Shown piece after piece: positions 2,200 through 33,803 of a stretch of 35,128 bases of DNA; the stretch's first letter is position 1, and each line of letters starts with the position of its first letter. This stretch comes from Acidaminococcaceae bacterium (lineage in GTDB: Bacteria; Bacillota; Negativicutes; Acidaminococcales; Acidaminococcaceae). Below the pieces are notes generated by a model. It was not told the origin of the DNA and searched no databases. It saw only the letters and a program-made list of their open reading frames with translations. Both the position numbers and the translations under genes were made by a program. The stretch lies in the NCBI GenBank assembly GCA_022653215.1, contig JALCSJ010000003.1, positions 1 through 35,128 on the forward strand. Reading direction: 5' to 3'.

Positions 2200-2229
2200 T
2201 TGACAAGCTTCCCTTCTATAAGCTAGAAT
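2200..2229 (+). promoter_or_regulatory. Sigma70-type promoter for tRNA-Val and the following small ORF
   Basis: TTGACA (2200-2205), 18 nt spacer, TAGAAT (2224-2229). Confidence 0.7.
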
Positions 2230-2248
2230 GACAACAGTAACTTATTGG

Positions 2249-2325
2249 GGAACTATAGCTCAGATGGTTAGAGTACCACGTTGACATCGTGGGGGTCACT
2301 GGTTCGAGTCCAGTTAGTTCCACCA
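2249..2325 (+). tRNA. tRNA-Val (anticodon GAC), CCA encoded
   Basis: Acceptor GGAACTA/TAGTTCC; anticodon stem CCACG/CGTGG with loop TTGACAT; T arm CTGG-TTCGAGT-CCAG; terminal ACCA. Confidence 0.95.
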
Positions 2326-2346
2326 CATTTTTAGGAAGTGAGCATT

Positions 2347-2532
2347 ATGGAACAAATGTATTATTGTGACGACGGTCACGGTGATTATAACAGAAGCTAT
2401 GAAGGTCATTATGAAATAGACTATGCGGACTATTCCACTGACCACAGAGACAACAATTTCAGGAACTACGAAAAGAAGGTTCCCAAAACCAAAAAAGAAC
2501 GTATTAAGAACATCCTTAATCACTATGAATAA
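2347..2532 (+). CDS. Uncharacterised 61-aa Tyr/Asp/His-rich small protein with basic C-terminus
   Basis: SD AGGAAG upstream of ATG 2347; MEQMYYCDDGHGDYNRSYEGHYEIDYADYSTDHRDNNFRNYEKKVPKTKKERIKNILNHYE; followed 2 nt later by a strong terminator; the ORF track GTG at 2338 lies within or next to the SD. Confidence 0.65.
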   Translation: MEQMYYCDDGHGDYNRSYEGHYEIDYADYSTDHRDNNFRNYEKKVPKTKKERIKNILNHYE

Positions 2533-2534
2533 AC

Positions 2535-2575
2535 AAAAACACTTTGCAGCTTACGTTGCAAAGTGTTTTTTCTAT
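2535..2575. terminator. Bidirectional intrinsic terminator between the small ORF (+) and ileS (-)
   Basis: aaaaacactttgca-gcttacgt-tgcaaagtgttttttct; A/T tracts on both sides. Confidence 0.85.
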
Positions 2576-5395: not shown

Positions 5396-5650
5396 AAAAA
5401 AAAAATAAATCCCGCTCCCCGAAGGGACGAGATATTGTTACCCGTGGTACCACCCTAATGACAGTTTCCTGCCACTCATAAGTTTTAACGTTCTTAACAC
5501 GGTTTGTCTTACTATCGGTTCAGGCAAACAGCTCGGGAGTGATTTTCTGCCTTAAAGCTTTCGTATGGACTCACACCGTCTCCATCTCGCTCAAAACCAA
5601 ATCAGGCTTTAAAGATTACTGTCTCCGTCATAGCATTTATTTTCTCAAAT
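5396..5650 (-). promoter_or_regulatory. T-box leader, Ile-specific, of ileS
   Basis: T-box AGGGTGGTACCACGG; specifier region GAAA-ATC-ACTCCCGAGC with ATC (Ile) at 5543-5541; AGTA motif; GC-rich stem and T-run before the ileS SD. Confidence 0.92.
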
Positions 5651-29756: not shown

Positions 29757-30031
29757 ATAAAAAATCGCCCCAATTATAATTATAGGGGCGAGGAATAATC
29801 CGCGCGGTACCACCCTGCTTCGGTTGCTAAACGCAACCCTCTCGGTCTCCAACAAGACCTTAACCTTTAACGGAGCTTACCGTCTTGAGCTAAGTATCGC
29901 CCAAGCAACTCGAGGGTGAGTATACAGATACTGACAACCATCGGCTTGCACCGTCCGCCGACTCTCTACAGGCTTGTTCAGTAAATTTTATCCCTGTCAC
30001 AGTTTTTAATAAAAAACATATTTAGTTGATA
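29757..30031 (-). promoter_or_regulatory. T-box leader, Leu-specific, of leuA
   Basis: AGGGTGGTACCGCG; specifier GTATA-CTC-ACCCTCGAG with CTC (Leu) at 29920-29918; terminator TCGCCCC...GGGGCGATTTTTT. Confidence 0.93.
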
Positions 30032-30143: not shown

Positions 30144-30414
30144 CAACTTGATAAGTGCTATGAAGAGAATAGTAAATAAAGATTATTGACACAGAGATCT
30201 CTCGCAGTGGTGAAAGAGAGAACAAGAAACTTTATTGAAGATGGCCTCTGAGCAGATTGGTCGAATATTTTAGACCTTCCGGGTGTGCCCGTTACAGCGC
30301 TGGAGTATTGATAGCGAGAGCTTGCGTACTTGAGAAGGCTTAACCTGTGAAGGTTAGGTGAATTAGGGTGGTATCACGGAGCTTCCGTCCCTTTATGGGG
30401 GTGGAGGTTTTTTT
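30144..30414 (+). promoter_or_regulatory. T-box leader, Met-specific, of metQ
   Basis: AGGGTGGTATCACGG at about 30365-30379; specifier GAAG-ATG-GCCTCTGAGC with ATG at 30241-30243, aligning with GAAA-ATC-ACTCCCGAGC of the ileS leader; stem III AACCT-gtga-AGGTT; T-run at 30408-30414. Confidence 0.9.
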
Positions 30415-33699: not shown

Positions 33700-33726
33700 A
33701 GAAAAGAACCGGCCCCAGGCCAATTC
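33700..33726 (-). terminator. Attenuator hairpin of the ZTP riboswitch expression platform
   Basis: Minus strand GAATTGGCC-TGG-GGCCGGTTC (9-bp stem with G-U pairs) then TTTTCTTTC. Confidence 0.75.
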
Positions 33727-33792
33727 TGCCCAGACGGTCGGCTTTAGCAATCATGCTTCACGTGGTTATCCACTTCCGTCAGTCACATGATC
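33727..33792 (-). promoter_or_regulatory. ZTP (pfl motif) riboswitch aptamer
   Basis: Minus strand ATCATGTGACTGACGGAAGTGGATAACCACGTGAAGCATGATTGCTAAAGCCGACCGTCTGGGCA; conserved GTGACTG.CGG..GTGG..AACCAC and CCG..TCTGGGCA segments; upstream of a purine (ZMP-using) gene. Confidence 0.88.
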
Positions 33793-33803
33793 TGTATATA
33801 AAT

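Follow-up and report, generated by a model that had tools for sequence, protein, structure and literature searches.

In E. coli, tRNA genes and protein-coding genes are found on mixed tRNA-mRNA transcripts, such as thrU-tyrU-glyT-thrT-tufB, metY-rimP-nusA and tyrT-tpr, and secG leuU is reportedly another bacterial transcript of this kind, in work attributed to Mohanty and Kushner. The 5' end of a tRNA is generated by RNase P. RNase E-type processing of tRNA precursors has been described in E. coli (PMC3985628).

The locus analyzed here lies at positions 2200-2570 of a 35,128-nt stretch of DNA from an Acidaminococcaceae bacterium, and the whole stretch is called the window below. It resembles the mixed transcripts in that a protein gene and a tRNA would lie on one RNA and be separated by RNases, but its protein is lineage-specific and has only 61 aa, the link occurs in one genome, and the arrangement has the appearance of a deletion product. 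Its resemblance to the E. coli RNase E-type processing consists of an RNase E/G family gene in the window genome, a CCA in all tRNAs read and an AU-rich stretch 3' of the CCA, but in this organism such processing is a prediction. Like taxon signature proteins, the protein is short, single-copy, near-universal in one family and undetected in relatives outside it, but the libraries searched contained no described signature protein with the DDGHGDYNRSY/DYADYSTD core.

Structure of the tRNA-Val(GAC)-ORF locus

The locus starts with a sigma-70-type promoter on the plus strand (TTGACA-18-TAGAAT, 2200-2229, 11 of 12 positions matching) upstream of the tRNA, and most of the relatives read had a comparable -35/-10 pair 5' of tRNA-Val. 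The tRNA-Val(GAC) with its encoded CCA occupies 2249-2325 (+) and was identified by ARAGORN and by Rfam RF00005 (68 bits). It is followed by a 21-nt AU-rich spacer, CATTTTTAGGAAGTGAGCATT (2326-2346, +), which contains the Shine-Dalgarno (SD)-like AGGAAGTGAG just 5' of the ATG at 2347 and is the likely processing region. The ORF at 2347-2532 (+, TAA at 2530-2532) encodes the 61-aa protein, and a 16-pair intrinsic terminator at 2535-2570 (+) starts 2 nt past the stop; the terminator can also be read on the minus strand, where the convergent ileS ends. A T-box leader lies upstream of ileS at 5420-5640 (-). The preliminary description had listed this promoter, the SD and ATG 21 nt past the CCA and the terminator 2 nt past the stop, and all were recovered at the same positions. 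It had also reported no terminator after the CCA at 2325, and our scan found none between tRNA-Val and the ORF in the window.

A consensus scan from the tRNA start to the ATG found no second promoter, and the best match scored 6 on the scale of the scan. The tRNA and the ORF are thus on the same strand, close together and with neither a promoter nor a terminator detected between them, which is the arrangement of a tRNA-mRNA dicistron. Because both a promoter and a terminator are absent between the two genes, the simplest reading is that they are co-transcribed in the window genome as a putative dicistronic RNA. The ORF might have kept its own promoter within the tRNA or the spacer, independent of the tRNA promoter, since consensus scans miss types other than sigma-70; but the best match of 6 is lower than the level that the relatives' upstream regions reach after shuffling (about 8), and we consider such a promoter improbable. 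In the part of the genome examined, the tRNA-Val(GAC) to which we assign co-transcription was the only tRNA with a well-formed ORF directly 3' and no terminator, and for most of the cluster-end tRNAs there, the distance to an intrinsic terminator was no more than about 20 nt.

Predicted processing of the transcript

Transcription from the promoter at 2200-2229 would pass the tRNA, continue into the ORF and end at about 2570. Thirty distinct tRNAs were read in the window's genome, and every one of them encodes its CCA. The processing RNases were searched in this genome and 12 relatives, and RNase E/G was over the cut-off in the window's genome and in 12 of the 13 in total, while RNase PH was over the cut-off in just two. 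Canonical RNase Z, the sign of RNase Z-dependent tRNA 3' processing, did not pass the curated cut-off in any of the 13 genomes, of which the window's own is incomplete. Since RNase E/G is present, canonical RNase Z and mostly RNase PH are under the cut-off, and the CCA is encoded, the likeliest step to separate the tRNA from the mRNA would be an RNase E/G cut in the AU-rich CAUUUUUA. This cut would give an mRNA having a short 5' UTR with an intact SD, and AGGAAGUGAG would be left for ribosome recruitment.

Distribution and constraint of the small-protein family

A single-sequence search with the 61-aa ORF found strong homologues in 52 of 59 Acidaminococcaceae genomes and in 37 of the 38 high-quality genomes of the family, and each genome that carried a homologue had a single copy. 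The profile search of 381 class genomes returned the same 52 matches, all within Acidaminococcaceae, and no homologue was detected in the 322 class genomes outside this family. A profile search of a phylum sample of 399 genomes also gave no homologue except that of the window's own genome. The named homologue records were mostly from Acidaminococcus, Phascolarctobacterium, Succiniclasticum and Candidatus Avacidaminococcus; the label Acholeplasmataceae was given to two MAG records, but their counterpart contigs fall in family f1 (G022, G042). No homologue was found in phages, plasmids or viral contigs. The window protein had no match in Pfam and NCBIfam, comparison of 26 homologues with Pfam, NCBIfam and PHROG gave weak scattered matches only (best E 0.0024, PHROGs), and searches of the PDB by sequence and by profile gave only chance matches. 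Our literature searches found no paper naming the 61-aa protein.

The alignment of 26-29 homologues contained 15 invariant columns, and the family core was DDGHGDYNRSY...DYADYSTD. The window protein has the features that define the family, which are a DDGxGxYxxSY ... DYxDYST core and a basic C-terminal tail. The dN/dS check that had been suggested gave a median of 0.11 in pairs whose dS was between 0.1 and 1; only close pairs were used for this value, because the raw pS against the window was saturated (above 1 in places, in a short sequence). Judged by its homologues and by this codon-level comparison, ORF 2347-2532 is a genuine protein-coding gene under purifying selection and no chance ORF. 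The new element is an uncharacterised, conserved signature protein family of Acidaminococcaceae. A single-copy and strongly constrained protein that is shared throughout this family of common gut and rumen bacteria, yet is missing in the searched family libraries, makes a good target for the study of family-specific function.

Predicted features of the protein

Of the 61 residues of the protein, 9 are Tyr and 7 are Asp. The acidic, Tyr-rich stretch of residues 1-41 has a net charge of -7 and the basic stretch of residues 42-61 one of +4, in line with the acidic/aromatic N-terminal part and Lys/Arg-rich C-terminus noted earlier. The AlphaFold2 model from 29 homologues (mean pLDDT 60.4, pTM 0.25) was mostly unstructured with one helix at 49-60, of low confidence, so the protein is predicted to be largely disordered with a single basic C-terminal helix. 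As the likeliest mode of action we tentatively suggest, in a weak proposal that stays short of an even chance, that the Tyr/Asp motif may bind a conserved partner and the basic helix may contact RNA, DNA or an RNP. An EF-hand reading of DDGHGDYNRSYE was set aside, for its spacing is unlike that of the canonical loop. The neighbours of the homologues include ileS, FAH (an FAA_hydrolase gene) and a gene that we take, from its sequence, to be pyruvate-phosphate-dikinase-like. No constant operon partner was found among these neighbours, and because they vary between genera, an operon partner gives no functional hint.

The tRNA link in relatives

Sequence of 300 nt or more upstream of the ORF homologue was available for 48 relatives, and this stretch contains a tRNA in none of them, so the proposed conserved position after tRNA-Val did not hold. 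In five genomes from three genera (L058, L059 and L061 of g2, L062 of g12 and L063 of g7), the same tRNA-Val(GAC) lies on the strand of the ORF, at an upstream distance of about 1.0-1.2 kb. An intrinsic terminator follows tRNA-Val in each of the five, and a reverse-strand FAH gene (identified by PF01557) lies between tRNA-Val and the ORF. The other relatives have the ORF at different loci. A terminator was present 3' of the ORF homologue in 35 of 46 relatives, and scanning the sequence 5' of the ORF homologues for promoters gave a mean of 9.1 against 8.1 for shuffles, which is a modest excess. The ORF homologue is probably transcribed alone as a rule in Acidaminococcaceae.

The 21-nt clean spacing, the good SD and the absence of another promoter in the window genome would suit a selected regulatory device that ties the level of the small protein to tRNA-Val maturation or growth rate, but such a device is hard to reconcile with the lack of a tRNA in the upstream stretch of all 48 relatives, with the terminator that relatives have after the tRNA and with the ORF at other loci, and we think it unlikely. 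A conserved tRNA-ORF device is not supported; the protein is conserved and its position is not. Of the coupling of the peptide to tRNA maturation in a tRNA-mRNA dicistron, as first proposed, the real gene and co-transcription as the simplest reading stand, but the arrangement is unconserved and the five relatives with the tRNA nearby have a terminator. The dicistron is likely real in the window genome, yet derived and unconserved.

Origin of the arrangement in the window

The gene order of L063 is ybeY-phoH-ppiB-tRNA-Val-FAH-ORF-ileS-gpm, which is the window order plus FAH, and the tRNA-FAH-ORF order was also found in genera g12 and g2. The 21-nt spacer of the window thus stands where these relatives have about 1 kb with the tRNA terminator, the FAA_hydrolase gene and the ORF promoter region. 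In the IleS tree, g12, g1, g17 and g2 formed one clade and g7 was in another, with ultrafast bootstrap values of 86-88 (moderate support) around the window's genus. Because g7 sits apart from the g12/g1/g17/g2 clade, the order with FAH probably came first and was lost in the window; the direction, deletion here against FAH insertions elsewhere, rests on parsimony and on these moderately supported branches. Since the window retains the flanking gene order without the terminator-FAH block, a deletion probably fused two transcription units. This deletion would have taken the tRNA-Val terminator, FAH on the reverse strand and the promoter region that belonged to the ORF itself, and the ORF, left 21 nt past the tRNA CCA, would now depend on the tRNA-Val promoter.

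The assembly of the window genome is fragmented, with 95 contigs and a completeness of 63%, and the arrangement rests on one sequence because a single genome of its genus was searched. An assembly artefact that joined the tRNA to the ORF, with FAH really present, would fit such a genome and a single observation, but the gene order of relatives is kept on both flanks, next to the junction the ORF has an unbroken frame, SD and terminator, and FAH had no close match elsewhere in the part of the genome examined (only a remote one with 27% identity), so we give this explanation very little weight. We therefore prefer the deletion, and have good confidence that the window carries the local copy of a single-copy family protein, put behind tRNA-Val by a deletion; this confidence extends to the gene and to how it is arranged, but leaves out the mode of action. 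Because the tRNA link is unconserved and a deletion is probable, the 'coupling to tRNA maturation' looks like a lineage-specific accident. The wider proposal, that an undescribed near-universal Acidaminococcaceae small protein, whose Tyr/Asp motif hardly varies, does a family-specific core job and was rewired by deletion onto a tRNA promoter in the window lineage, is in our opinion slightly favoured. The window would then be a naturally occurring example in which a conserved gene outlived the loss of its own promoter under a tRNA promoter, and the deletion rewiring, if true, a natural experiment in promoter capture.

Other RNA elements in the window

Two further T-box leaders were found back to back and pointing apart at 29781-30009 (-) and 30151-30395 (+), and a ZMP/ZTP riboswitch aptamer was found at 33721-33796 (-).
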